IMG/VR virus record: IMGVR_UViG_3300025276_000264
Span: 1 to 20,822 of that record
Length of the DNA: 20,822 nt
Direction: 5' to 3' (one strand)
Source: a virus
Shown here: positions 2,131-17,967 of the stretch, piece by piece
Numbering within the stretch: position 1 is the stretch's first letter
Layout: the number at the start of each line of letters is the position of its first letter
The notes under the pieces: generated by a model
What the model was told of the DNA's origin: nothing
Databases searched by the model: none
What the model saw: the letters and a program-made list of their open reading frames with translations, nothing else
Made by a program: the position numbers and the translations under genes

Positions 2131-3627
2131 TTACGCAGCTTTGAACAATACAAAATTATTTGCAGCTTGCGTTACTAAACATCTTTCAGATAAAAAGTGC
2201 ACAGACATTGCATCTAATCCAGAAGTATAAGCTCCACCTACAGATCCAGTGATCCAAGACTTGTACCTTCTATCTTCAGTTTCAGAAGCTCTATATCTTA
2301 CATGTAAGAAAGGACGTCTAATGTTAACACCCATCATTTGGTCATACACAGTTGTAGTTCCAGCAGGTATCATTACACCATCAATAGCTTTAGATAAACC
2401 TCTAGTAGAAGCATCATTTAAGTATTTCCAGTCAGTCTTGTAGAAGTCATAAGAACCTCTTCTAAAACCTGAAAATCCAAAATTCAACGCCATTTCAGAC
2501 TCATTGTCAAAAAGACCATAAGAAGCAGAAGCAGTTGAACCGAATCCACTACCAGCCATAGCGCCAATCATGTCATCAAAATCAAGAGCAGTTGATCTAT
2601 TTAAGAATAACATATTTTCTTCAATAGCACCTTGCTTATCTAATTGTTGTAGTATAGTATCAAAATCACCTAACGCACCAGATCCAGGAGCAGCAGCACC
2701 AGAAAAACCAGAGTATACATTACCTCTTGCTTCGATAGCAGCAAATAAACCTTCAGATCCATTAACTTGAATACCAGTTGATGCAACTGTTCCATCGTAC
2801 TTGAAATCATAAGCAGCTTTCTCAGATTCAACCATCATCATCTCTAGGTAGTCATCAAATCTTAATCTTGTTTCAGACTCAGATTTTAAATACCATAAGT
2901 ATCCAGATGTTCCATCTTCAGTAGCAACTTCAACCCAACCAATTTGTGCAGTATCAGAACCATTAATCTCAAAGTGATCTTTAAGAATAACAGGATTGTT
3001 ACTAAATTGAGTAAAGTTTGGCTGAATAGCACCTTTCATAGATTCAGTACCTTTTCCAAAATCAGAACCATAAACAAATAAGCTACATGGTCCAGCAGCT
3101 AACGTAGTGTTAACAGTATTACTATCATAAGGAATAGCATCTATATCAGCAGCGTTTCCAGTGTAAGCAGTACCAGCTGAATTTCCAGATATTGTAGATC
3201 CTATAACTAACATTTTTTGTGTGATAAGACCTGTGGCATTATCAGACACTAATATAGTTTGACCAGTTCTTATAGCTGGATTAGTAGCCTCAGTGTTAGC
3301 CATGTTAATAGTAATTCTACTAGAACCATTTTCACCACCACCTTGAGCGATACTTGTAACAGCATCGTAAGCTACGTGTAATCTATTTTGTTCAGACCAA
3401 ATTACTTGATCAGATGTCATAGGCATTTCAGCGCCTACCATTCTCAAGAAACCACCTAAAGTTCTGTTTCCGTATCTTTCTACCTCTTGCTCATAAAGCT
3501 CTGGTAGATATTGTTGTGCAAAATCGTTTTGTCCACCTGTAAAGTCTAAGTAATTAGTCTCTAAAGCTAACTTTTTTTGAGAAGGCACTATTGATGCAGG
3601 AAAACTCCCGCCTGTATTAAAACTCAT
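2131..3627 (-). CDS. Major capsid protein
   Basis: This 498-aa protein follows portal and scaffold genes, the standard place for an HK97-fold major capsid protein. The N-terminal part contains FAQQYLPELYEQEVERYGNR (about residues 36-55), typical of an N-arm and spine helix. Residues near 230-270 include IGWVEVATEDGTSGYLWYLK followed by SESETRLRFDDYLEMMMVE, resembling the capsid P-domain and long helix of related marine phages. The C-terminal half carries GVMIPAGTTTVYDQMMG and RRPFLHVRYR. There is no obvious N-terminal propeptide or protease gene next to it, so assembly probably relies on the separate scaffold gene upstream. Its leader is almost pure A, and a hairpin follows its stop, both fitting strong expression. 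The assignment rests mainly on position, length and motifs I recognise; I could not run a structure search. Confidence 0.88.
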   Translation of the reverse strand: MSFNTGGSFPASIVPSQKKLALETNYLDFTGGQNDFAQQYLPELYEQEVERYGNRTLGGFLRMVGAEMPMTSDQVIWSEQNRLHVAYDAVTSIAQGGGENGSSRITINMANTEATNPAIRTGQTILVSDNATGLITQKMLVIGSTISGNSAGTAYTGNAADIDAIPYDSNTVNTTLAAGPCSLFVYGSDFGKGTESMKGAIQPNFTQFSNNPVILKDHFEINGSDTAQIGWVEVATEDGTSGYLWYLKSESETRLRFDDYLEMMMVESEKAAYDFKYDGTVASTGIQVNGSEGLFAAIEARGNVYSGFSGAAAPGSGALGDFDTILQQLDKQGAIEENMLFLNRSTALDFDDMIGAMAGSGFGSTASASYGLFDNESEMALNFGFSGFRRGSYDFYKTDWKYLNDASTRGLSKAIDGVMIPAGTTTVYDQMMGVNIRRPFLHVRYRASETEDRRYKSWITGSVGGAYTSGLDAMSVHFLSERCLVTQAANNFVLFKAA

Positions 3628-3643: not shown

Positions 3644-4774
3644 TTATTTTTTTATTTTTTTTTGTATTCTCAACTTAGAACTATCAAGTCCACCTGTAAT
3701 TGCTTTAACTTTAAGTCCATTTATAAAAATATCACCATTAGAACTAGGTCTAGGAGTGTTGTCTATATTTTTAGATTTAGATATCAAGTCTTTAGTACCA
3801 TCAGCAACACCCTGTTCATAAAAGTGTTTAGCTATAGTATCAGAATTACTAGCAGTATAAAGAGCTTTGTGATATGCCTGTACATCAGATATTTGTCCAT
3901 CTTTATCAAGAAACCTTCTCAAAAAATTATCTAGATTAGACTGATCTTGGCCAACTTTTTCGTTATTAACTCCATATCTAAAACTTTTCTCTCCTACGTC
4001 AAATTTAAAACCTTTAAATTCTTCATCATTAAATAAGTCACTAGTTCTTTTTTGGAATTTTTCCGAAACAGCTTTGTTCTTTTCTTGTTCTTCGTTGTAT
4101 CTATTGAAAAAGTCAGTAGCTTTTTTTTGTTCCTGAGTAACGCCCGGTCTCAACTTGATCTCGTCGTAATATTTACTCTTCGTTTCTTCTAAAAAACTTC
4201 TGGCTTTGGCAATTTCTTCTTTACGAGCAACTTGTTTTTTCTTAACTGTTCTCTCGTCATCAACCTCATCATCAAAATAAAAACTATCTTCTAATATAAA
4301 AGATATTTCATCTTGATTTAAATGTGGTTTAGTTTTTTTATAATACTCATTAAGTAACGCTTCTTCATTTATGTTTTTATAATCAGCATTAAGTCTCACG
4401 TAATCTTCTAAAGTACCACCTGTGTCTTTCATAAAACTTACTAGTTTTTCCACGTTATCAGGTAGATCTACTTTTGGTTCAATTTCTTTTACAGGATCTT
4501 TAATTTCTTCTTTAACCTTTTCCTCACTTTTGATTACTTCTTCCATTATAGGTTTTTCATCAATTTTTTCTTCAGATTTTGTTTCTATTTTTTTTTCTTC
4601 AGGTTTTTCATTTAAAACAATTTCTTCTTTTTTTACTTCTTCTTCTTTCTTTGGTTCTTCTTTTTTAGATAAATCTAATTTAACTACTTCATTAGTGTTT
4701 ATTGATTTTTTTAATTTTGCAACTTTCTTTTTAATTTTAAAATCACCTTCTTTTTTTACTTCTTCTTTGTTCAT
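3644..4774 (-). CDS. Probable capsid scaffold protein
   Basis: This 376-aa protein lies between portal and capsid, where tailed phages keep the scaffold gene. Residues 1 to about 105 are a low-complexity Lys/Glu tract (for example EEPKKEEEVKKEE), likely disordered. A middle region near 105-240 is charged and helical with coiled-coil character (RKEEIAKARSFLEETKSKYY). A C-terminal basic tail (LRIQKKIKK) could bind the inner capsid shell, as basic C-terminal helices do in known scaffolds. There is no serine-protease triad or other enzyme signature. It has no resemblance to the decoration proteins. The start follows an A/T leader only 17 bases after the portal stop. The scaffold role is inferred from composition and position. 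Confidence 0.75.
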   Translation of the reverse strand: MNKEEVKKEGDFKIKKKVAKLKKSINTNEVVKLDLSKKEEPKKEEEVKKEEIVLNEKPEEKKIETKSEEKIDEKPIMEEVIKSEEKVKEEIKDPVKEIEPKVDLPDNVEKLVSFMKDTGGTLEDYVRLNADYKNINEEALLNEYYKKTKPHLNQDEISFILEDSFYFDDEVDDERTVKKKQVARKEEIAKARSFLEETKSKYYDEIKLRPGVTQEQKKATDFFNRYNEEQEKNKAVSEKFQKRTSDLFNDEEFKGFKFDVGEKSFRYGVNNEKVGQDQSNLDNFLRRFLDKDGQISDVQAYHKALYTASNSDTIAKHFYEQGVADGTKDLISKSKNIDNTPRPSSNGDIFINGLKVKAITGGLDSSKLRIQKKIKK

Positions 4775-4791
4775 AATATATAATATAATAA

Positions 4792-7233
4792 TTAACTAGA
4801 ACCCATCATCGATTGTGCTAGTTCAATGGGGTTGTTTTCGTCGGCTTCAAAGTCAATTGGCATTTCTTGATTTTGTCTTTGTCCGATCATAGCTGACTGT
4901 TGAGTTCCAACTATTTTAGCTCTTTTGTCTTTTCTATCTTCAATTTCAGATTCTTTATTAGTCTCTCTATCTGAAATTACTTGTTCTTTTTGAATCATAG
5001 CTTGTGTTTTGACTTGCTCCAACTGCATGTCATAACCAAACTGAACTTCCATGATACCTCTTTTTATCTCAGCTTCTGCTTGAAGCTTTTGTATATCAAA
5101 TTCAGATTTACCTTTCTCAATTTGCATTTGAGTCTGCGCTAACGCTTCCTGTTTTTGAACTTCGGCCATAGCTGCTCTTTCTGAAGCTTCAGCATTTGCA
5201 TTAGCTTGTGCTTGTATATTAGCTTGTTGAGCTGCTTGGTCTTGTTTAGCTTTTTGTTTTCTTCTTAATTTTATTAACTGATTAGCTAGTTTTAAATTAT
5301 GAATTTGTCTAATATCTATAGCGTCTTCTAGAGTTATATTCTGTTGTTGTAAAGCAACTTGTATGTTTTGTTCTAATTGAGCTTTTTCTTCTTCATCAGG
5401 AACTAATTCTAAGAATATTCCAAAGTCGTATAAATGCAAACTAAATATATCCTCTAGTGTGCCTGTGTTATAAGAACTTATAGAGGATCTTAAAGCCTCA
5501 TTAGTTAATTCAAATTCTAAAGTATCTGCTATTCTACAAGCTATGTTTTCACATGTTCTAATAGTTAAATATAAACTAGCATTTAGTATATGTTTAGTAG
5601 CTGTGTTAGAATTGGCTGCAGCTAGTTTCTGTAAACCAACTAATGAGTCTTTATTAGGTTGACTGCCGTCTCTAGCTTCATTAAGACCTGTAACATCTCT
5701 TATTAACTGTAAATAATATTGATAAGTCTGTATAAGACTTTGTATTTTAGCTTGACCACTAGAACTAGACAGTTCTTGTATAGGAACTTTACCGTGATTT
5801 AAGTCACCATCTTGAGTCATAGATCTACCTACTATACTACCAGTTTGAAAATACATGTTTAATGCTTCTTGTGGATTATAAGTTGTTCCATTACCTAGAT
5901 CTACTTCTGCTAAACCATCTACGTCTACAAAAACACCGTCAGGAACTATTCTAGCTAAAACTTGTTGTAGTTTTAAATGAGTTAATTGAATCATGTCAGC
6001 AAAACCAGTGACTCTACTAACTAAAGACTCTATTCTGCCCTTGTACATTTTAGGAGCGCATATAGAGTAATTCATATTAACTTTTGTCAAATTAGAATTA
6101 GGTCTTGTCATGTTTTTAGACATTTCCCATTTTAACATTTCATCGTGACCTAATATCTTAGCACCACTATACAAAACTTCTATTGATCTAGAAACTCTAT
6201 CAAAATTATCTGTTTGTTCAGGATTAAAAGTATCAGGTTTTTCTAAAGCTTTTTCTAAACCGTTAGCCGTGTGTTTTATTTTAAAAACTTGCTCGCTGAA
6301 TGTTTTATATTCAAAGTAAAGTACATAAACCATGTTGCCATCATTTCTAGCGTCCATGTTGTACATCATATTACTATTGCCTGGGTATTTTGATATTCTA
6401 TTTAAATCTTCTTTTGTTAAATTAGGAAATTGTTTTTTAAGTTCAGCTAGTGTTATAGGTTTTACTTCACCAACATACCATATGTCTTGGAAGTTTGGAT
6501 CATCAGTATAAGAATAAACAAGTCTAGATGGATCTACATATTCTATAGTTATACCATTAGCTCTATTCCAAGAAGTTTTAACAGCACCAATACCTAATAT
6601 AGTTAAATCCTCATTAAATCTTCTTCTAGCTAATTCATACTTATTAAAATCTAAAACATTGTTTATAGCTTCTTCTTCTGCTATTTCTATAGACTGCTTG
6701 TAATCTAACTGCATATGTAGATTTAATTCCTCTTGGTTTTGAGGTAAATCTTCTGGATTTTCAGTAGCATATAAGTCTATGTTTAAAGCACTCTTTATAT
6801 TGCCTAAAAAAGAATCTGCTTGCATGTCTCTTAATATAGATTCTGCATATGAGGTTCTTTTCTTCAAAGAGGCTGGATCTTGTGCATAAGCTTTTATATC
6901 ATACAATCTGTCAGACATACCATTAACAACTATATCAACAAATTTTGGTATTATAGGTATAGGTTTCCAATCTAAATTAAGATATGATAAATCACCATTT
7001 ATAGATAACTCATCTTTGTATTTTTGAACAGGCTGTTCACCTCTTGCGTAAAGTCTTAATGTTCTAAAATTATTATAATTATAATTATATCTATTTGTTA
7101 CTCCACTTCTAGTTCCACTAAACCAATCAGTTTCTATTGCTCTACCGACTTTTCTGCCATAATCTAAACTTGCTTTAACTTCATCAGATACAACCTGATC
7201 AGGGAAAATACTAAAACTCTCTGTATTTATCAT
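4792..7233 (-). CDS. Portal protein
   Basis: This 813-aa protein follows the large terminase directly: the terminase stop TAA abuts this ATG. It carries features of the long portals of short-tailed phages. The N-terminal part has FRTLRLYARGEQPVQKYKD and LDWKPIPIIPKFVDIVVNGM (about residues 55-115). A central clip/stem region contains GITIEYVDPSRLVYSYTDD and LVSRVTGFADMIQLTHLKLQ. A loop with LNEARDGSQPNKDSLVGLQK follows. From about residue 645 to 775 it is a long Gln/Ala/Glu-rich coiled coil (QAAQQANIQAQANANAEASE), likely an extended barrel or tunnel inside the head. The end is acidic (MPIDFEADENN). It would form the dodecameric ring at one capsid vertex where the terminase docks. Confidence 0.88.
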   Translation of the reverse strand: MINTESFSIFPDQVVSDEVKASLDYGRKVGRAIETDWFSGTRSGVTNRYNYNYNNFRTLRLYARGEQPVQKYKDELSINGDLSYLNLDWKPIPIIPKFVDIVVNGMSDRLYDIKAYAQDPASLKKRTSYAESILRDMQADSFLGNIKSALNIDLYATENPEDLPQNQEELNLHMQLDYKQSIEIAEEEAINNVLDFNKYELARRRFNEDLTILGIGAVKTSWNRANGITIEYVDPSRLVYSYTDDPNFQDIWYVGEVKPITLAELKKQFPNLTKEDLNRISKYPGNSNMMYNMDARNDGNMVYVLYFEYKTFSEQVFKIKHTANGLEKALEKPDTFNPEQTDNFDRVSRSIEVLYSGAKILGHDEMLKWEMSKNMTRPNSNLTKVNMNYSICAPKMYKGRIESLVSRVTGFADMIQLTHLKLQQVLARIVPDGVFVDVDGLAEVDLGNGTTYNPQEALNMYFQTGSIVGRSMTQDGDLNHGKVPIQELSSSSGQAKIQSLIQTYQYYLQLIRDVTGLNEARDGSQPNKDSLVGLQKLAAANSNTATKHILNASLYLTIRTCENIACRIADTLEFELTNEALRSSISSYNTGTLEDIFSLHLYDFGIFLELVPDEEEKAQLEQNIQVALQQQNITLEDAIDIRQIHNLKLANQLIKLRRKQKAKQDQAAQQANIQAQANANAEASERAAMAEVQKQEALAQTQMQIEKGKSEFDIQKLQAEAEIKRGIMEVQFGYDMQLEQVKTQAMIQKEQVISDRETNKESEIEDRKDKRAKIVGTQQSAMIGQRQNQEMPIDFEADENNPIELAQSMMGSS

Positions 7234-9459
7234 TTACTTAATTATTTGTGAAAAATCTCCTTGATTATTATATTTTTTAATACCTAAATTAATATTTTTT
7301 GTAGTTCTATCTATATTTGGTTTATACTTGTTTTTATTACAAGCCATTATAGCTAGTCCAGAGCTAATAGAAGCATCATGCTTTGTTCTATCATTGATGT
7401 TAAAAGTAGCCCAATCTTCTAAAGTGGGTTGATGAAACATGTCTCCATAATTCTCATCTATTTTACCTACGTAATTGCTTATATATGTTTCAATAGCAGC
7501 TGCATGAGCTTGCTTAATATCTTCACCTGAATTAGGTATTCCACCAACTTCTTTTTCTGCCACAGATAGTTTATTCCATATTTTATCAGGTCTATTTATA
7601 GAAAAACCTCTATATCCTCTACGCTTAAAATAATATAACAATCTTGGTTTGTTGTTTTCTGCTAGTATTGGCATGCCGTAAAATACACAAGCCATTAATA
7701 CATCTTCAAAAAATATTTCTGCAGTATCAGGTCTAGCTATATATTCTAAGAAAAAATGATTAGGTGGAGCAGCTTCCATACTAAACTTTGTTAAACCATG
7801 TAAAGAACCTTTAGAACCTCTACCATCAACAGTTCCTGATATGTCATAACTATCACAACCAAAAGCACCTATATGTTCATTAGCAGGGTATTTTTTTCCA
7901 TCTTTTAATATTACATTATTTTGAAGACTAGAATCAGGAAACCAACTTATGTTGAATCTTCCATTATTACTAGGTATAAAAATAACTCTAGTATCTTTTA
8001 CCCCACTTGACCATTGAAAATTACCTTTTGATACTCTTTTAATATTATTAACACCTTCATTATAATCTATTTGCTCATATATTTTAACTAAATTAAATAA
8101 AGATTCTTTTGTTTCGTCTCTAAATGCGTGTTTTTCAGTTCTTGGAAACTGTCTATAAAATTCATTTAAACCATCTTGATCTTCTTTTAAACCTTCAGCT
8201 TCATTCTTCCAATGTTCAATTACTCCGATTTCAATAGGCAAACCGTCGATTCCGTATGTTTTATTTTTTGGCGTAAGAAATACAGGTGATCCATAAGTAT
8301 CCATGTATCCTTCGTAGTTCCACTCCATAGGGACGAATAAAGAATAGAGTCCAGAAGATGTTTGTCCGTTTCTATTTCTTTTTGTAACGTCTGAATTTGC
8401 GTAAAGTTTTTTGAAGTTGTTTCCACCTTTGTCTAAAGCATTTGAAGTTGAGCCCATCATACATTTACCAACTATTTTTCTACCTAGTCTTAATGTGGTT
8501 TTAGTAACTCTCCAGTTATTTAATATGTTGTCCGGTCTTTCCCATTTTCCACTTTCATCGTGAGCTAGTATTTTTAACTTTTCACCATCGTAAGAGTTGT
8601 CACCAGTATTTTTCCAGTCAATAGTTGTATCAAGTCCATCAAGTTCTCTTAGTTGCTCATTACTTTCAAGCTTTCTTCTAGTAAGTTTCGAAGCTGGGAC
8701 TCTATAGGCCAACTCTGTTTTAGGACGATCCATACCATCCTGTATCGGTTTGAAGAAAAACGGATAGTTAACGGATATTGGTACAACTTTATCTGTGAAC
8801 ATTTTTTTAGCATCTGATCCAGATTTAGACAAAATACCGAATCTGGCATCACTAGATATTGTGGCTTGATTAACCAATTCCGCTGATGACATAAATGAAA
8901 ATCCAGACCTTCTGTTTTTAAGGTAGCACATCCCGTAACATCTGTTATCTGCTTTACATGCTTCCCAAAATATAAAGAATAGTCTATTTGCTTCTCTATA
9001 GTCTGGTGCTCCAATGTCGATCTTTGACCATTGCAGATACATGTAATGAGTGCCAGTAATGTATTTAATAACACCTTTATTATAAAACCAGTAACCTTCT
9101 TCTCTTTTAATAAATTCATTATCAATATAGTCGTACCATTTTTCTTTAAACTCACCGTCGTGTTCTTCCCAGTCAAACCTGCTTTTTATTCTATTTAATT
9201 CTTTTGGGTACTCTTCTCTTTGCCAGTATTGATCCTCTTTTTTTTCGCTTCGTTTAAACGGTTCATTTGCTGCTGGTAAAGCAATCCTGAGATTCTGTAT
9301 TTCAATGATTTGTCCAATTTGTCCAGTTTTACTTATTACTATGAAATCATAATCAGAGTTATAACCATACTCCCATTTTTTTAATCGATTTTGTTTTTTT
9401 AATACTTTAGTATTAACAATATCTTTTATTTCTTTCCACAATGTTTGCTCGTAATTCAC
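7234..9459 (-). CDS. terL: Terminase large subunit
   Basis: This 741-aa packaging motor has an ATPase half and a nuclease half. The Walker A region is YLKNRRSGFSFM (about residues 179-190), where the usual Lys of GK[ST] is replaced by Phe, with two Arg just before. Walker B is ILAHDE (297-302), with catalytic Glu 302. Motif III is likely GSTSN (336-340). The C-terminal half contains GAFGCDSYDISG, whose Asp fits the first metal ligand of the RNase-H-like nuclease, and a late Asp in KHDASISSGLAIMA. The start is GTG, overlapping the previous stop as GTGA. Portal follows with no gap. Other start codons are possible, but the 4-nt overlap favours this one. ATP-driven DNA packaging and cutting is established for the family. 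Confidence 0.9.
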   Translation of the reverse strand: MNYEQTLWKEIKDIVNTKVLKKQNRLKKWEYGYNSDYDFIVISKTGQIGQIIEIQNLRIALPAANEPFKRSEKKEDQYWQREEYPKELNRIKSRFDWEEHDGEFKEKWYDYIDNEFIKREEGYWFYNKGVIKYITGTHYMYLQWSKIDIGAPDYREANRLFFIFWEACKADNRCYGMCYLKNRRSGFSFMSSAELVNQATISSDARFGILSKSGSDAKKMFTDKVVPISVNYPFFFKPIQDGMDRPKTELAYRVPASKLTRRKLESNEQLRELDGLDTTIDWKNTGDNSYDGEKLKILAHDESGKWERPDNILNNWRVTKTTLRLGRKIVGKCMMGSTSNALDKGGNNFKKLYANSDVTKRNRNGQTSSGLYSLFVPMEWNYEGYMDTYGSPVFLTPKNKTYGIDGLPIEIGVIEHWKNEAEGLKEDQDGLNEFYRQFPRTEKHAFRDETKESLFNLVKIYEQIDYNEGVNNIKRVSKGNFQWSSGVKDTRVIFIPSNNGRFNISWFPDSSLQNNVILKDGKKYPANEHIGAFGCDSYDISGTVDGRGSKGSLHGLTKFSMEAAPPNHFFLEYIARPDTAEIFFEDVLMACVFYGMPILAENNKPRLLYYFKRRGYRGFSINRPDKIWNKLSVAEKEVGGIPNSGEDIKQAHAAAIETYISNYVGKIDENYGDMFHQPTLEDWATFNINDRTKHDASISSGLAIMACNKNKYKPNIDRTTKNINLGIKKYNNQGDFSQIIK

Positions 9460-9731
9460 TTGCTTCTCCCTTCTGCAAAACCTTTAAAAGTTTTTTGATC
9501 TTTAACTTCTTTAGGTTTTTCATTTAAAATATCTTCCTCCAATTGTATTCTAGTTAATATTTCAAAAGCGTCGAATATAGCTAATTTTTTAGTTGCGGCA
9601 GCATTTTTTAATCTATCAGCGCTTAAGTCGTCGTCTGAGTCTACAATCTTTTCTTTTGCTACCTTAATTAGTTCTTCAACTGCTTTTTGTCCAGCTTGGA
9701 TTATATTTTTTTTCGTTTCCTTTACATTCAT
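9456..9731 (-). CDS. Candidate terminase small subunit
   Basis: This 91-aa, mostly helical, charged protein ends in a GTGA overlap with the large terminase. That position and size fit a small terminase subunit, which recognises phage DNA for packaging. A helical block with DDDLSADRLKNAAATKKLAI sits near residues 33-52, followed by FDAFEILTRIQLEEDIL. I cannot point to a definite helix-turn-helix. Its start lies inside the end of the tandem Cpn10-like gene with a 56-nt overlap in another frame. No later Met exists in the protein. The role is inferred from context only; it could also be a head protein. Confidence 0.6.
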   Translation of the reverse strand: MNVKETKKNIIQAGQKAVEELIKVAKEKIVDSDDDLSADRLKNAAATKKLAIFDAFEILTRIQLEEDILNEKPKEVKDQKTFKGFAEGRSK

Positions 9732-10281
9732 GGATTACGGCTATATTATTTGATTTCATACAATAGAGTCTATCTTCTCCAATAACAAATTCAAATTCTG
9801 AATCTGGAGAAAAACTCACTAAATCACCAACGTTAACTTTTTTGCTTTTTAAAGAGTTATTACAGTATTTTACTATACCTAATAACTCTTTTTCTTTTAA
9901 GTTGCTTAAAGTTGAAGTATCTTGCACTGGTGACACAAAACAGTAGTTTAAATTACATTCTAGTTCATTATTTCTTTTGTATAAGTATATTTGACTTGGA
10001 GAACAAAAATATAAATCATCTTTAAAGTAAGTTGAACCATTTCTTTCTTTACCTTTAGTGTCATACCATCTTCTAAAAATATTGTGATGAATATAAACTT
10101 CATCACCTATTTTAATTTCAGTACTATTATGATGTGGCTCAGAAACAATTAAAGCTTTTTTACTTACAAAAACGTGACTCTCTATTTTAGTGTTTAAAAT
10201 AAGTTCTTTGTCTTGAAATTTAATTTTATTGTCGTATCTGTAATTTAAAGGTTTTACTATAAAGTCGTATAAAGATTTCAT
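9676..10281 (-). CDS. Tandem Cpn10-like (GroES-like) protein next to the terminase
   Basis: This 201-aa protein reads as two GroES-like domains. Domain 1 (about 1-103) begins SLYDFIVKPL, like the PLHDRVIVKR start of GroES. It has LIL at 27-29 within KELILNTKI, where the GroES mobile loop has IVL. It then has IKIGDEVYIHHN (56-67), matching VKVGDIVIFND, and DDLYFCSPSQIYLYK (88-102), matching EEVLIMSESDILAIV. Domain 2 (about 110-185) repeats the pattern: CFVSPV, LLGIVKY, VNVGDLVSF (149-157) and DRLYCMKSNNIAVIHE, but has a short loop lacking the hydrophobic tripeptide. The end is YNPSWTKSS. Its start forms TAATG with the previous stop, and it overlaps the candidate small terminase by 56 nt. Plastid Cpn20 is a known two-domain precedent. 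The likely partner is the GroEL at 16102-17640, but a virion or packaging role is also possible. The fold call rests on alignment by eye. Confidence 0.72.
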   Translation of the reverse strand: MKSLYDFIVKPLNYRYDNKIKFQDKELILNTKIESHVFVSKKALIVSEPHHNSTEIKIGDEVYIHHNIFRRWYDTKGKERNGSTYFKDDLYFCSPSQIYLYKRNNELECNLNYCFVSPVQDTSTLSNLKEKELLGIVKYCNNSLKSKKVNVGDLVSFSPDSEFEFVIGEDRLYCMKSNNIAVIHECKGNEKKYNPSWTKSS

Positions 10282-10508
10282 TAATAAGTTAAATCATACT
10301 CTATAGATACTGCCATATTTGAATTAAATTTTTTCCAAGGTATTACTTCTTCATCTTTTTTAATGAATATATTGTAAGAATCATCTTCATCGTTATGCAT
10401 TATATTACATATAACATGACCGCCGTACACTTGTTGACTTAATTGATAGTGCATTGCTTCATTTTTGTAATCAGCGCCTATACTTATTTTTCTAATTAAA
10501 TTAGACAT
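10281..10508 (-). CDS. Small phage protein of unknown function
   Basis: This 75-aa protein begins MSNLIRKISIGADYKNEAMH and continues YQLSQQVYGGHVICNIMHND. It looks like a compact alpha/beta domain with several strands and no catalytic motif. From memory similar proteins appear beside the terminase and Cpn10-like genes in marine phages, but no role is known to me. Its stop overlaps the next ATG as TAATG, and its start overlaps the end of the coiled-coil gene by 8 nt. Co-translation with the Cpn10-like protein is therefore likely. Confidence 0.8.
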   Translation of the reverse strand: MSNLIRKISIGADYKNEAMHYQLSQQVYGGHVICNIMHNDEDDSYNIFIKKDEEVIPWKKFNSNMAVSIEYDLTY

Positions 10509-10737
10509 CTTTTTTAGTTTCTATTTTAGTATATGATCCGTCTGTTAAATTAATATTTATTTGACCATATTCGGCTTCTAATAACTCTTTATAGTCTTCA
10601 ATATCATTATTCAAAGGAGCAATAGCGTGTAAAATACCGTGTTTTTTAGTTTCTAAAAAACCTATATCGTGCATTAATTCTGATAAATTTTTTTGTTGTT
10701 CTTGAATTAATAATAATTCTTCTTTTTTTATTTTCAT
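10501..10737 (-). CDS. Small coiled-coil protein of unknown function
   Basis: This 78-aa protein consists of two predicted helices (about residues 4-30 and 33-57) with heptad-like Leu and Ile spacing, joined by a short turn. A beta segment follows (YGQININLTDGSYTKIE). The arrangement resembles a helical hairpin followed by a strand pair. It is loosely like a prefoldin-type shape, but I see no sequence match to prefoldin and do not claim one. It begins the short operon containing the Cpn10-like and terminase genes. Its leader is A/T-rich with CAAATCAAATCAA just before ATG. Confidence 0.78.
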   Translation of the reverse strand: MKIKKEELLLIQEQQKNLSELMHDIGFLETKKHGILHAIAPLNNDIEDYKELLEAEYGQININLTDGSYTKIETKKDV

Positions 10738-10762
10738 TTGATTTGATTTGATTGTTTGTTTT

Positions 10763-11299
10763 TTAATATACTGCTAAAATATCATCACCACTAGTTAACT
10801 CTATAGCTAACATTGGGTGAGTAAATCCTACGTATTCTGTTGCTGGAACACTTTTAAAAGTTACAGCTGTTCCTGCTTCTGTTATTATTGATATATCTTG
10901 TGCTGATGTTTTATTATTATATATCATAGCTCCTCTTGACTCTGCCGTTAAATTAGACAAAGAATCAGCTGATATTATAACTTGAAAACCATCACCACCA
11001 CCTGTTGCTGGACTAAGTATTATAGTTTCACCTACCTTAGCATCTCCTTTTGATATAAAAGTAAATCCCGTAACTAAACCCGCTGCTGATACTGCAGTTA
11101 TATTACCAGATACACCTACATTACCTACGCCAGTTAAAGTATCACCTACGTCTGATGATTCATAACTAGCTCCTCCGTTCCTTATTGTAAAATTCCAATA
11201 TGGAGTTGTTGCTATTGCATCATGCCCAAAAACCCTTGGTTGAGCTGCTTCATTTCCTACTAAACCAGGTCGTTCGTTAAATGTGTTAAATCCTGCCAT
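10763..11299 (-). CDS. Beta-rich virion protein (spike-base or decoration type)
   Basis: This 178-aa protein begins MAGFNTFNERPGLVGNEAAQ. Two similar Gly-rich beta units follow: one around SSDVGDTLTGVGNVG and one around KGDAKVGETIILSPATGG. The C-terminal 55 residues (AMIYNNKTSAQDISIITEAG, then VTFKSVPATEY, ending DDILAVY) loosely match the pattern of phage and gene-transfer-agent spike-base proteins, in which a short beta domain ends in an ALY-like tail. That match is by eye. It stands between the holin and the small genes leading to terminase, so it may be a minor head or spike protein. No enzyme motif, signal peptide or membrane span is seen. Confidence 0.75.
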   Translation of the reverse strand: MAGFNTFNERPGLVGNEAAQPRVFGHDAIATTPYWNFTIRNGGASYESSDVGDTLTGVGNVGVSGNITAVSAAGLVTGFTFISKGDAKVGETIILSPATGGGDGFQVIISADSLSNLTAESRGAMIYNNKTSAQDISIITEAGTAVTFKSVPATEYVGFTHPMLAIELTSGDDILAVY

Positions 11300-11300
11300 T

Positions 11301-11747
11301 TTATTTATTTATTTTTGTAATTTTTTCAGCACCACGACTACCGAAGTATGCTACGTAAACTGTTATTAATAAAGCTTCCATTAAAGAAACCCATCCTGTT
11401 TTTATTTCTAATAATACTGTTGAATCTAGTATTACAAATATTGTCATAGATAATGTTAGATATATTAAAGTTATAGGCCTAGTGTTTTTAGAAAGCCACG
11501 AATCACTTTTCATATCGCTTTTCCATCGATTAGAAACCTCTTTAAGTTCAGTTATATCCTGCTCTATAAGCTTCATAGCTTGTTCTTTATCAACGGCCTT
11601 AATCTTATTATCACTTGATATAAGATTTTTTACTACACCAAGCGTCCCTTTATCAGGAAGTACATCTCCAATAGCTTGCAATACTCTAGGCGCCTTGCTT
11701 GATAAAAAAATACCTATTTTAGTTTCTTTAAATGTTTTCTTTTCCAT
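11301..11747 (-). CDS. Holin of the 3TM / GTA-holin type
   Basis: This 148-aa protein has a soluble N-terminal half with basic and acidic helices. The block DMKSDSWLSKNTRPITLIYL (78-97) follows. The pattern DM-SDSWLS-N-RP-T is the hallmark I recognise from the phage and GTA 3TM holin family. Hydrophobic spans follow at about 92-112 and 119-136 (SLMEALLITVYVAYFG). The N-terminal segment IGIFLSSKAPRVLQAIGDVL is amphipathic and might supply a third membrane contact. In the cell it would sit in the inner membrane and let the amidase at 13443-13856 reach the cell wall. Its start overlaps the previous stop as TAATG. Confidence 0.78.
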   Translation of the reverse strand: MEKKTFKETKIGIFLSSKAPRVLQAIGDVLPDKGTLGVVKNLISSDNKIKAVDKEQAMKLIEQDITELKEVSNRWKSDMKSDSWLSKNTRPITLIYLTLSMTIFVILDSTVLLEIKTGWVSLMEALLITVYVAYFGSRGAEKITKINK

Positions 11748-12961
11748 TAAAAATCAAATGTTTTGGTTTGTAGTGCTTTGTATTTTTTTGCGTATTCATC
11801 ACCATAATTTCCAGCGGCTTCTTGATCTAATTTAGCTATTGCTTTTATTTTTAACTTTTCTTGAGTGGTTGTTCCTTTATAAACTTGTGGATAATTAGAT
11901 TTTAAATCTTTAAGAGATGTTGATCTTTTTTCAAACTCACTATTTCTTTTAGAGGTATTTGTACCATACATATTTGTAGCTATAGAACCATCATATGTAT
12001 ACCCATCAGGATTTGCAGCTTTCAATGCTTTCATTTCTTTTATGGAAGTTGTACCTCCTCCACCAATCGGTGATTTAGATTTATCAAATTCAGATTTTGT
12101 GAATCTTATGTTATTCATTTTCTCCACCATAGTTTCACCTTCTAAATCATCCCAGACCTGATTAGGCAACATTTTAAGATTTGTATTACCTCCTGGAGAT
12201 TCGTAATTTATTTCTGTTCCTTTTTCAGGAGGATTATCCATCATTTCTTTGAAATAATTATATTCCGATTTAAATTTATCTTTTTCTTTATTAACAGCAT
12301 TCATACTGTTCTTTATTCCTTGATTGAAATCATCTACAGACTGACCACCTTTTTCTTTATATTTTTGGGTATTTGCAAATAATTTGTCGTCGTCAAAGTT
12401 GGCTACATTACCTCTTTCGTTTAATTTAGTATATTCAGAACCTTGGTAATTTTTTGTTCTATTTTTGTAATTAGTAATAAAAGCTCCTTTTTCAGTGTCG
12501 TAAGTGTAGAAACTACCATTGTAAGGCGGTGGAGTTGATATGTTTTGATCGTTTACAGGTTCTTTATGTAATGGAGATTTATTTATTAATCCTTTATTCA
12601 TTAGCGCTGAATAAGGATTTGAATTTCCTCTTGAACCTTCTAGTTTGAATTTGTTATTATTTTTAGCTTTGCTGTAAGCTTCTTTTTCCCACGGCAGGTT
12701 CTTAGCTCCTTCATCCATTGATTTCCTTGAATACTCTTTACCTTTCCATATAACTTTATTATCATTATAATCTAAATCACCTCTTTTCATTTGGTCTAAA
12801 TGTACAGCTTCGTGATCTACTATATCTTTTATTTGTTTAGGATCTGTAACGTCTTTGTTTATGTGTATGCTTCCATCTTTATTAGCTTTACCTAAAACAC
12901 CTTCTTCCATATCAACTTTAATAATAGGAGAATTAAATGGATTACTTTTCTGTTTGTACAT
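11747..12961 (-). CDS. Zincin-like domain protein with a long disordered tail
   Basis: This 404-aa protein has an N-terminal domain (about 12-96) with DHEAVHLDQM. The HEAVH at 50-54 is a perfect HExxH zinc-protease motif. WEKEAY at 91-96 offers a Glu that could be the third ligand, as in gluzincins. From about residue 105 onward the chain is Lys/Asn-rich and probably disordered, with INKSPLHKE and KSPIGGG motifs. The HExxH helix is preceded by strands and followed by a WKGKEYSRK hairpin, a layout compatible with a small metallopeptidase. I infer an active zincin, perhaps acting on a virion or envelope target. Pseudo-enzymes exist, so activity is not shown. The start overlaps the 52-aa gene by 20 nt, and its stop forms TAATG with the holin start. 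Confidence 0.75.
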   Translation of the reverse strand: MYKQKSNPFNSPIIKVDMEEGVLGKANKDGSIHINKDVTDPKQIKDIVDHEAVHLDQMKRGDLDYNDNKVIWKGKEYSRKSMDEGAKNLPWEKEAYSKAKNNNKFKLEGSRGNSNPYSALMNKGLINKSPLHKEPVNDQNISTPPPYNGSFYTYDTEKGAFITNYKNRTKNYQGSEYTKLNERGNVANFDDDKLFANTQKYKEKGGQSVDDFNQGIKNSMNAVNKEKDKFKSEYNYFKEMMDNPPEKGTEINYESPGGNTNLKMLPNQVWDDLEGETMVEKMNNIRFTKSEFDKSKSPIGGGGTTSIKEMKALKAANPDGYTYDGSIATNMYGTNTSKRNSEFEKRSTSLKDLKSNYPQVYKGTTTQEKLKIKAIAKLDQEAAGNYGDEYAKKYKALQTKTFDF

Positions 12962-13100
12962 TTTTATACGGAAATTTTATGTTTAATTGTTCTTGGCGTT
13001 TATTACAATTGCATTTACTAAAAGTAATTTCAACTGCTTTTTTTATGCCTGTAAATTCAGTAAATTTAGCAATACTATCACCTAAACCTTTGCTTTTCAT
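12942..13100 (-). CDS. Small 52-aa phage protein with a Cys-x-Cys motif
   Basis: A short frame starts at the ATG 13098-13100, which overlaps the preceding stop as TAATG. It ends at the TAA 12942-12944, inside the next gene. The product begins MKSKGLGDSIAKFTEFTGIK and later has SKCNCNKRQEQLNIKFPY. The GLGDSI...TGIKKAVE...CNCNKRQEQLN...FPY pattern looks like a small protein I have seen in phages and their hosts (GLGD..., CGC-K-RK--LN-LFPY), usually annotated hypothetical. The two Cys could bind a metal or form a disulphide, but two ligands alone are not a site. The overlaps at both ends and the pattern support a real gene. Confidence 0.7.
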   Translation of the reverse strand: MKSKGLGDSIAKFTEFTGIKKAVEITFSKCNCNKRQEQLNIKFPYKNVQTEK

Positions 13101-13456
13101 TACTTACGTTTTTTAGATTTTAAATCTCTAAGTTGTTTAGCTAACTCATCTAGTTTACCATCTGTTTTTGTACCATCTTTTACTAACGTAGACAATACTT
13201 TTATTTCTTCAGATAATATACTATTCATCTCTTCAATCATACTAACCTTTTCTTTTAATTCAGTTATATTAATATGATTCCACTTTTCTTTAAGATCGTA
13301 CTCTAATCTTTTAACTTCTACTGGTGGTAAGGTTTTTGCTAATTGTATATCTTCTTGTAGTGTATAATACATACCAACTAAAGTTGTTGTTAACATGATT
13401 ATACCTATTACTGTTTTTATATCAATTTTAAATTCGGTGTTTTCAGATATTTTCAT
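13100..13456 (-). CDS. Membrane-anchored coiled-coil protein, possible i-spanin
   Basis: I take the start at the ATG 13454-13456 (MKISENTEFK), giving 118 aa. An upstream in-frame Met at 13504 would add 16 residues but overlap the amidase by 62 nt instead of 14. A single hydrophobic span lies at about 13-33 (IDIKTVIGIIMLTTTLVGMY). It is followed by LPPVEVKRLEYDLKEKWN and a long coiled coil to near residue 110, ending LKSKKRK. An N-terminal anchor plus periplasmic coiled coil, just after the amidase, is the layout of an inner-membrane spanin (Rz type). I found no lipobox partner gene nearby. It might alternatively be a holin-associated or membrane-scaffold protein. Confidence 0.7.
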   Translation of the reverse strand: MKISENTEFKIDIKTVIGIIMLTTTLVGMYYTLQEDIQLAKTLPPVEVKRLEYDLKEKWNHINITELKEKVSMIEEMNSILSEEIKVLSTLVKDGTKTDGKLDELAKQLRDLKSKKRK

Positions 13457-15401: not shown

Positions 15402-15848
15402 TTATCTTTTTTTATCTTTATTTAAATCTATAATAGATTTATACAATACTTTATCCATATATGTTTTTTTATTCATTATGCTGTTAGTTCTAGAATTTAT
15501 TGATATATCTTCTTCTCCTAAAATTATTCTATAAACTCTAGAAAGCAATTGTTTAAATTTTAATGAAGTCTTATATATGTGATATTTTTGAGTTGTTCTA
15601 TTTCTTTTTCTCCAAACCACTATCCAGTCTTCTTGTAGTAACCTACTCCATCTTCTATTATCCCAACTGTAAGAATAACAACCGTCTTTAAAATCTTGTT
15701 TGTTAAAGTATTGTAAGGAATCTAAATATATTAATAATTCAAAATCAGCTTCTCTTATATTGTAATTCCTATTAATCCATTTTCTTATTATTCTATAGTG
15801 TTTAAATAGATTTAATTCTTTTAGATCATTAGAATTTAATTTCCTCAT
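15402..15848 (-). CDS. Winged-helix-like protein in the chaperonin operon
   Basis: This 148-aa protein contains FKHYRIIRKWINRNYNIREA and DFELLIYLDSLQYFNKQDFK (about 15-54), followed by YSWDNRRWSRLLQEDWIVVW and RKRNRTTQKYHIYKTSLKFK. The order of helix, helix, recognition-helix-like segment and a basic beta wing fits a MarR/PadR-type winged helix, and from memory such genes are common in marine phage structural regions. The basic wing RKRNRTTQKY suits DNA contact. Its start overlaps the groES stop by 4 nt (ATGA), so it is translated with the chaperonins. Whether it regulates transcription or is a virion protein is not settled. The DNA-binding call is inference from pattern. Confidence 0.75.
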   Translation of the reverse strand: MRKLNSNDLKELNLFKHYRIIRKWINRNYNIREADFELLIYLDSLQYFNKQDFKDGCYSYSWDNRRWSRLLQEDWIVVWRKRNRTTQKYHIYKTSLKFKQLLSRVYRIILGEEDISINSRTNSIMNKKTYMDKVLYKSIIDLNKDKKR

Positions 15849-16105
15849 AAAACAACAACTACATCCATATCTTTAATAACATGAAGATTTTCTTTATCTG
15901 AATCTATTTTAAATCCAGCATGCCTGTCATAATATATTTTATCGTTATTTTCAATAAATTTAACTTCAGAACCAACACTAACTACTACCGCTTCCCTGTA
16001 TCTAATATCTTCTCTGTCGTTTTCGCCTAGAATTAAACCACCCTCTGTTTTTTGGGTGGTTTTATTTTCTTTTTTAATTATTATATACCTTCCTACTGCT
16101 TTCAT
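15845..16105 (-). CDS. groES: Co-chaperonin GroES (Cpn10)
   Basis: This 86-aa protein is a single Cpn10 domain, slightly shorter than E. coli GroES (97 aa). The N-terminal strand is VGRYIIIKKE. The mobile loop TEGGLILGEN (20-29) matches the SAGGIVLTGS loop of GroES, with LIL at 24-26 replacing IVL. The core strand EAVVVSVGSEV (38-48) and the segment DKIYYDRHAGFKI (55-67) resemble phage and marine co-chaperonins. The C-terminal strand is HVIKDMDVVVVL (75-86). It would form the heptameric lid on the GroEL encoded just before it. The start overlaps the groEL stop by 4 nt (ATGA), and the next gene overlaps it equally. It ends shortly after the last strand, without extra sequence. Confidence 0.93.
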   Translation of the reverse strand: MKAVGRYIIIKKENKTTQKTEGGLILGENDREDIRYREAVVVSVGSEVKFIENNDKIYYDRHAGFKIDSDKENLHVIKDMDVVVVL

Positions 16106-17640
16106 GCTCTTAAGTTATTAATTACACAATCAGTTGATATAATAGTTGTAGCTACTGACGCCGCGTTTCTTAATGCACTTTTAGTAACAAGTAAAGGATC
16201 TATTATTCCGGACTCTACCATACTCACCGTTTTACCTGTAACCACATTTAGTCCTGTACCTTTTACTGTAGGAGTTTGATAATCTTCAATTCCAGCATTA
16301 GATAATATAGTGTAATAAGGATGCTTAATAGCTTGTAATAAAACTTCTTCAGATTTAGAACTAGCCTTTATATCTGATGAAGCATTTAATAAAGCTATGC
16401 CTCCACCTGGCACTATACCTTCTTTTAGCGCGGCTTTTGTAGCGCATATAGCATCTTCTACTCTGTCTCTCTTTTCTTTTAATTCTATTTCTGAATTAGC
16501 ACCAACTTTGACTAAAGCTACCTTAGCTTTCAATCTTGAAACTCTTTTTTCTAAACTGTCTTTTAAAAACCCTTTAGTAGTTTTATTGTATTGGTCTTCT
16601 AATTCATTAGTTAATTTAATAACTTCTTTACTTTTGTTTTCTATCTGTATAATAGTTTCTAAAGTATTGCTAACTACTTTTTTACATTTACCTAAGTGTT
16701 CTATGCTTATTAAGTCTAAATCATCACCTAAGTCTTCGCTTATAACTTTAGCACCTGTTAATAAACCTAAATCATCTAATGTGTTTTTTCTATTAGCTCC
16801 ATACGTAGGTGCAGATATTATATTAATTTTTATATTGCCTTTTATTTTATTCATAGCTAATGCACTACTAACTTGAGGCTCAACATCTGCTATTATTAAT
16901 AATGGTAATTGATTTTTAATAACATGTTCTAATATTGTTTGTATCTTTCTCACGTTTTCTATTGGTGAGTCAACTATTAAAACTAAACAATCGTTTAATT
17001 CTACCTCATTCTTAGCTTTGTCAGTTACAAAATGAGGATTTGAAAATCCTTGTTCATACTGAATACCTTCTATTAAATCTACTTTAGTATTTGGCTCATC
17101 ATGAGTTTCCATTATGACTAAACCATTTTTACCTACTGAATCAAATGCTTTAGATATTATTTTACCTAGATCTGGATCATTATTAGCTGATATTGTAGCT
17201 ACTTGTTCTATATTACTCTTTTTAACTTTTGAAGAGTTTTTTTCAAGATATTGCACTACTTTCTTAACAGCTCCATTAATTCCAGTTTTTAACTCTCTAG
17301 GATTTAATTCTTTATATTTAGAAGCTTCTTTAAGTATTGCATATGCTAAAACCGTGGCTGTTGTTGTTCCATCGCCTGCTTCTTTGACAGTTTTTCTAGC
17401 TGCTTCTTTTATTAACTTAGCTCCCATGTTTTCTACTGGATCTAAAAGTATAATACTATTAGCTACTGTTACTCCGTCTTTTGTTATTTGAGGATCACCA
17501 TTTTGATTTTCCATTATAACACATTTACCGCTAGCTCCAAGTGTAGAGCTAACAGCTTTTGTGAGAGTTTCTATTCCTTTGAATATTTTGTTTTTAGCAT
17601 CTTCACCGAAGTTCAAGTGCTTAACTATTGTCTCGTTCAT
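16102..17640 (-). CDS. groEL: Phage-encoded chaperonin GroEL (Cpn60)
   Basis: This 512-aa group I chaperonin (E. coli: 548) refolds proteins inside a double-ring chamber with GroES. ATP-site motifs are intact: KDGVTVA (Asp55, E. coli Asp52), AGDGTTTATVLA (Asp90, Asp87) and RVEDAICATK (Asp396, Asp398). The apical domain (about 190-375) includes VEPQVSSALAMNKIKG and APTYGANRKNTLDDL. The end, SALRNAASVATTIISTDCVI, matches E. coli up to MITTECMV, then stops at NNLRA with no GGM tail. In the apical groove Tyr203, Leu234, Leu259 and Val263 of E. coli appear as His, Gln, Ser and Ala. It is upstream of groES, the opposite of the bacterial order, with a 4-nt overlap. Likely clients are phage capsid or tail proteins. 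The A/T leader has no Shine-Dalgarno sequence. Confidence 0.97.
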   Translation of the reverse strand: MNETIVKHLNFGEDAKNKIFKGIETLTKAVSSTLGASGKCVIMENQNGDPQITKDGVTVANSIILLDPVENMGAKLIKEAARKTVKEAGDGTTTATVLAYAILKEASKYKELNPRELKTGINGAVKKVVQYLEKNSSKVKKSNIEQVATISANNDPDLGKIISKAFDSVGKNGLVIMETHDEPNTKVDLIEGIQYEQGFSNPHFVTDKAKNEVELNDCLVLIVDSPIENVRKIQTILEHVIKNQLPLLIIADVEPQVSSALAMNKIKGNIKINIISAPTYGANRKNTLDDLGLLTGAKVISEDLGDDLDLISIEHLGKCKKVVSNTLETIIQIENKSKEVIKLTNELEDQYNKTTKGFLKDSLEKRVSRLKAKVALVKVGANSEIELKEKRDRVEDAICATKAALKEGIVPGGGIALLNASSDIKASSKSEEVLLQAIKHPYYTILSNAGIEDYQTPTVKGTGLNVVTGKTVSMVESGIIDPLLVTKSALRNAASVATTIISTDCVINNLRA

Positions 17641-17673: not shown

Positions 17674-17967
17674 TTACTCGAAGGTCTTAATTACTTTCGG
17701 TCCTTTGGTAAACTCTAGCTTATTAATATAATGTTCAACAGATGCATCTATTGCTTGTTCTGCTCCGGCTATTGTTTCTCTTCTGGTGACATCTACCCAT
17801 ATTTCAGGATCATTAATGTCTCTATATTCGGTTTGTAAAAAGCCATTAGGTAGTTGAACTATTCTCCAGTTTTTCTTCTGTGAAATATGTTTCCAGTACT
17901 TAATGGTATCTTCTGTTGGTTGTGGTGCACTAGACCACGTATTGGTGCGGGTATATAAAAACGTCAT
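17674..17967 (-). CDS. Small phage protein upstream of groEL, unknown function
   Basis: This 97-aa protein begins MTFLYTRTNTWSSAPQPTED and continues with TIKYWKHISQKKNWRIVQLP. A pattern NGFLQTEYRDIND (about 42-54) is followed by WVDVTRRETIAGAEQAIDAS, an amphipathic helix, and the tail LEFTKGPKVIKTFE. I recall similar short proteins in marine phage structural clusters but no function. It is preceded by a copy of the 30-nt repeat (18000-18029) and followed by the groEL leader, so it may be co-transcribed with the chaperonin genes. No membrane span or metal motif is seen. Confidence 0.8.
   Translation of the reverse strand: MTFLYTRTNTWSSAPQPTEDTIKYWKHISQKKNWRIVQLPNGFLQTEYRDINDPEIWVDVTRRETIAGAEQAIDASVEHYINKLEFTKGPKVIKTFE

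Follow-up and report, generated by a model that had tools for sequence, protein, structure and literature searches.

A groEL-first chaperonin gene pair conserved in a mostly marine phage lineage

Results

A complete chaperonin pair in reversed order

The window (the whole 20,822-base stretch of viral DNA analysed here) carries a complete group I chaperonin gene pair in which groEL comes first, groES follows and the two share 4 nt in an ATGA overlap, an arrangement described in the initial annotation and borne out to the base (Table 1). The same groEL-then-groES order was present in all 113 phage loci that contained both genes. On balance, we think it probable that this is an old pair owned by the phage, that its GroEL and GroES are adapted to each other and that it folds one or more virion proteins.

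Table 1 Features of the window and the matches that support them
Feature	Position	Strand	Matches and remarks
Virion structural protein, 498 aa; probable major capsid protein and candidate client	2131-3627	-	phrog_13704, E=2.3e-86
Portal protein	4792-7233	-	phrog_6547, E=8.7e-139
Terminase large subunit	7234-9459	-	phrog_6681, E=1.5e-164; 63% to MW202828, 46% to Elemovirus
ES2, second co-chaperonin-like protein, 201 aa; predicted tandem Cpn10 fold	9676-10281	-	phrog_13932, E=7.8e-19; one gene upstream of terminase
Winged-helix-like protein, 148 aa, chained to groES	15402-15848	-	phrog_17028, E=7e-10; MarR-like model
ATGA overlap, groES stop and winged-helix gene start	15845-15848	-	4 nt
groES (Cpn10), 86 aa; mobile loop with GGLIL motif, roof loop shortened	15845-16105	-	PF00166, E=4.5e-12; phrog_3188, E=2.7e-15
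ATGA overlap, groEL stop and groES start	16102-16105	-	4 nt
groEL, 512 aa; group I chaperonin subunit lacking the GGM tail	16102-17640	-	PF00118, E=2.4e-57; phrog_5725, E=2.3e-138
Conserved 97-aa gene, no assigned family	17674-17967	-	Just upstream of groEL; homologues in 86 loci

All main genes of the window lie on the minus strand, and no RNA families or tRNAs were found within its 20,822 bases. Over 18,176 bases the sequence is identical to a 44-kb contig (IMGVR_UViG_3300027668_000031, locus L279), on which we observed a very large 3096-aa ORF (4145-13435) on the virion strand. Based on profile matches, the chaperonin pair shares its strand with amidase, terminase, portal and capsid-type genes. 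Because the amidase, the terminase, the portal and the 498-aa virion gene all lie downstream of the pair, we place it on the late strand, that of the virion-building and lysis genes. The capsid role proposed for the 498-aa protein is based on its position after the terminase, the portal and a 376-aa gene. Homologues of the 97-aa gene stand directly upstream of groEL in loci G001, G004, G011 and G014.

Ranked by terminase, the nearest relative was MW202828, followed by Elemovirus and then by Cellulophaga and Tenacibaculum phages; the hosts of known relatives belong to Flavobacterium, Cellulophaga and Maribacter.

Gene order in phages and bacteria

The 113 loci comprise the best 80 of 242 relatives from one IMG/VR GroEL scan together with loci reached via the terminase and the Elemovirus GroEL, and because some are near-copies the total overstates the number of independent cases. 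The same two protein families make up the bacterial groESL operon, where the usual order, as the initial annotation had stated, is the opposite: across 80 bacterial GroEL loci, groES was upstream in 72, not found nearby in 8 and downstream in none.

Among annotated phages, Elemovirus (Flavobacterium phage vB_FspP_elemoF_6-3D, NC_055853) has groEL then groES with a 1-nt overlap, a winged-helix homologue directly after groES and a second GroES-like gene adjoining the terminase; it differs from the window in that its GroEL is only ~39% identical and its winged-helix gene is on the opposite strand. Caudoviricetes sp. ctfjg026 (MW202828, Manatee Spring), which has the most similar terminase among annotated records, likewise has groEL then groES, an opposite-strand winged-helix homologue after them and ES2 near the terminase, but its GroEL is ~36% identical and its groEL and groES are separated by a 4-nt gap. 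In Maribacter phage Panino, for which GroEL and GroES were reported earlier (PMC11590407), the order is groEL, a 44-aa ORF and an 88-aa GroES, with the winged-helix homologue ~1 kb downstream. The small Panino GroES (L262 8767-9033, PP540027) is labelled only as hypothetical, and the protein annotated as GroES is the tandem one on the terminase side.

Complete phage pairs in the usual order also exist, in immuto, SJC03 and MT835992 and, with one gene between, in Cellulophaga phage phi38:1 (Callevirus), so that order by itself does not date the module as the initial annotation had supposed. Phage phi38:1 resembles the window in having a complete pair and an ES2 gene adjoining the terminase; it differs in its arrangement (groES, a 90-aa gene, groEL) and has no winged-helix gene beside the pair. 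GroEL was reported earlier in 36 environmental genomes related to it (PMC5332604). We also considered crAss-like phage cr111_1 as a further case of groES downstream of groEL and rejected it, the overlapping 89-aa ORF having no GroES match.

In a tree of terminase and portal proteins, reversed order occurred on the Elemovirus/Panino branch as well as on the MW202828/marine branch, and it was therefore probably ancestral to the whole group. In the same tree phi38:1 is nested beside the Elemovirus/Panino branch among reversed-order phages, and its order is probably derived, subject to the placing of the root. The comparison of gene order in relatives proposed in the initial annotation thus gave reversed order in Elemovirus, MW202828 and Panino, with phi38:1 as the exception. 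Its view that complete phage pairs are uncommon holds for isolates and fails for the marine lineage, of which a single IMG/VR scan returned 242 relatives. We found no description of the reversed order in the literature searched, which did not include Marine et al. 2017 on virioplankton chaperonins.

The overlap at the junction

A single ATGA overlap is ordinary: of the 26 pairs of neighbouring genes in the window 12 overlap, and among 883 closely spaced same-strand pairs from relatives the share is ~31%. We accordingly discarded the idea that the overlap is special by itself: part of it is mere compact-genome style, and only its conservation stands out. Since overlap alone is so common, the real signal is the conserved order combined with near-universal overlap, which measured 1, 4, 14, 17 or 20 nt in 112 of the 113 loci, MW202828 being the lone exception.

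The groES start reads MKA[IV]G in the marine clade and MKVV in Elemovirus, in DNA ATGAA. At junctions of the window's class the ATGA of the groES start doubles as the groEL stop, and in most relatives groEL reads into groES in a different frame, its C-terminal tail being, for example, NESNR or NEGSR. Each of the two frame classes (1/4 nt and 14/17/20 nt) was found in both the marine and the Elemovirus clades. Retention of the overlap despite this change of frame fits selection for translational coupling, whereby groEL would be made first and groES translated by way of its overlapping start.

The winged-helix gene overlaps groES in the same manner, as the initial annotation had noted, and this 4-nt overlap (-4) recurs in 74 of 81 loci. 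Its label is plausible: the AlphaFold2 model of the product (pLDDT 88) is MarR-like, and its best Foldseek matches were MarR-family regulators, although these were weak (E 0.04, probability 0.98).

An ordinary ATPase core and a rewritten apical groove

The Cpn60 profile PF00118 spans residues 26-508 of the window GroEL, a full-length, classical group I match. The residues for nucleotide binding and hydrolysis (T30, K51, D52, D87, T89-T91, D398 and D495) are identical in the window and in 81 of 81 clade sequences. ATP-driven cycling of the phage GroEL is therefore likely, and its core would be of the ordinary group I type. The GGM-rich C-terminal tail, a usual but not definitional feature, is absent from all 81 phage sequences, and a GM-type tail is present in 73 of 80 bacteria. 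Ring-contact residues vary in a site comparison with the clade alignment.

A conserved apical groove, the region that binds substrate and the GroES loop, is again usual for group I chaperonins without defining them, and the window GroEL departs from it. At nine groove sites (Y199, S201, Y203, F204, L234, L237, L259, V263 and V264) it has F, N, H, F, Q, L, S, A and M, leaving only F204 and L237 unchanged. Replacement of L234 by Q and of V264 by M, at sites invariant or nearly so in bacteria, was found in 81 of 81 phage sequences, and other consistent swaps were Y199 to L or F, S201 to N, Y203 to H and V263 to A. Changes were enriched in the groove (10 of 16 sites versus 45 of 173, p=0.004) and weakly so when only the remainder of the apical domain served as reference (p=0.05), in a set of related sequences whose sites are not independent events.

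For groES, the Cpn10 profile score was 46.3 bits against a cut-off of 21.1 bits. The hydrophobic tripeptide of the mobile loop (GGLIL) takes the form GGL[LFIY]L in 81 of 81 relatives. By alignment, the mobile loop is ~2-3 residues longer than in Flavobacteriaceae GroES, and the roof loop falls ~4 residues short of its Flavobacteriaceae counterpart and ~9 short of the proteobacterial one, leaving the protein without the full roof beta-hairpin that is usual in Cpn10 and absent in T4 gp31. Roof loss is not a phage-only trait, because some bacterial GroES are equally short: Bacteroidota GroES show part of the shortening, and one Nitrospirae GroES shows all of it.

The intact ATPase core, the retained GGLxL motif and the classical group I match would all suit a phage chaperonin that raises general folding capacity, is interchangeable with host GroES and GroEL and has no dedicated client or partner. 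We consider this unlikely, given that the phage sequences consistently carry other residues at groove positions that do not vary in bacteria and that both partners are always retained together within the reversed-order clade. According to the reading we prefer, that of a co-adapted pair, the apical groove would have been rewritten alongside the phage's own GroES, and for this reason the two phage proteins probably work with each other and do not borrow a host partner.

Comparison with T4 and giant-phage chaperonins points to a possible client. The longer mobile loop and reduced roof of the window GroES are shared with T4 gp31, in which both are stronger. The gp31 design is believed to help fold gp23, a capsid protein of 56 kDa, and to make the cage larger for it, and T4, which has no groEL of its own, uses host GroEL (PMC6318259). 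The client of the window pair would by analogy most likely be a capsid-type protein of ~500 residues, with the 498-aa protein as the leading candidate. The window differs from gp31-type systems in having its own groEL, and its groES matches phrog_931 only weakly (E 1.8e-5). Pseudomonas phages EL and OBP similarly encode a group I-like GroEL, which is 25-28% identical to that of the window, but the window has an adjacent groES, whereas the EL/OBP-type chaperonin is reported to work without a co-chaperonin (PMC5934643); we found no Cpn10 match in the region of the EL genome examined.

A second co-chaperonin-like protein near the terminase

A second GroES-family protein, ES2, which did not appear in the initial annotation, is encoded near the terminase. 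Its family, phrog_13932, is named co-chaperonin GroES, and we found no Pfam Cpn10 match above cut-off. The AlphaFold2 model (pLDDT 84) had plastid Cpn20, a tandem Cpn10, as its top Foldseek match (7ekq_R, E 5.4e-5; 199 aligned columns, TM 0.52), followed by GroES and gp31. The model thus predicts two Cpn10 folds in one chain, and its low-confidence residues 21-40 may correspond to the place of the first mobile loop. The likeness to Cpn20 is in the predicted fold, with ES2 differing in its missing Pfam match.

ES2 is conserved in 103 loci and adjoins the terminase in Elemovirus, Panino, phi38:1 and phi18:3. The last of these has two Cpn10 proteins (ES2 and a small GroES) and no groEL in its genome, which indicates that ES2 does not depend on a phage ring and rules out the strict association between ES2 and groEL to which tblastn counts had pointed. 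Neither a Cpn10 protein nor groEL was found in Gundel_1. In crAss-like phage cr111_1, a '10kDa chaperonin' gene (L267 6816-7226) lies three genes before the terminase with groEL farther off, a position resembling that of ES2.

Plastids combine Cpn10 and Cpn20 in mixed or alternative caps. A private phage chaperonin with two lids, the roof-reduced GroES and a Cpn20-like ES2, perhaps forming such caps for oversized or packaging-linked virion clients, is a speculative extension of the structural model that we regard as decidedly doubtful.

Age and origin of the pair

Identity between the phage GroEL and the retrieved bacterial GroELs did not exceed 43%, a ceiling that applies to the best 80 of a capped set of about 590 candidates. 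Reversed-order phages formed one GroEL clade (support 98/87) that fell outside bacteria and other phages (99/96), and the GroES tree was broadly concordant (98/97); both are to be read as trees containing long branches. Taken together, the order in 113 of 113 loci, its presence on both branches of the core tree, the low identity and the single clade support a long-standing phage module, in agreement with the initial annotation. Recent capture from a host followed by local rearrangement has nothing in its favour beyond membership of general gene families. It is contradicted by the identity ceiling and by a shared order extending to isolates from different genera, and we regard it as refuted for this locus within the searched bacterial sets.

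Separation of the phage clade from bacteria in the chaperonin trees was qualified by AU tests, which did not reject grouping the clade with Bacteroidota (p 0.30), with Flavobacteriaceae-type GroELs (p 0.60) or even with Zobellia and Maribacter (p 0.52), the quick free tree search in these comparisons not being optimal. The tests being uninformative on this point, we dropped the attempt to name a bacterial donor by tree. The Flavobacteriaceae result and the hosts of the known relatives would both fit a scenario in which a phage took up a flavobacterial groESL operon long ago and the order of the two genes was reversed afterwards, within the phage. We treat this origin as possible rather than probable, because the unconstrained GroEL and GroES trees separate the phage clade from bacteria and because phi18:3 lacks groEL altogether and carries groES close to a winged-helix homologue.

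In phi18:3 (L285, KC821620 31108-32237), the small groES is followed by one gene and then by the winged-helix homologue (phrog_17028, E=9e-18) on the opposite strand, which suggests that groEL and groES can assemble separately. The phi18:3 GroES grouped with that of SJC03, apart from the reversed-order clade; the GroES tree thus gives no support to it as the direct ancestor type of the window groES and weakens the idea of a single resident groES later joined by groEL. Our preferred account is still that groEL and groES were probably joined inside phages and not taken up as a host groESL operon, which would explain how the reversed order arose.

Discussion

Phage chaperonins are known mainly from T4, which has the lid only, and from giant phages, which have the ring without a lid. 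The window belongs to a large, mostly marine lineage whose chaperonin pair is complete, reversed and closely linked, and which has cultured members. Across its relatives the complement ranges from the full pair through lids only (phi18:3) to nothing (Gundel_1). This lineage makes it possible to test how phages acquire a folding machine, how ring and lid co-evolve away from those of the host, and which virion protein is the client.
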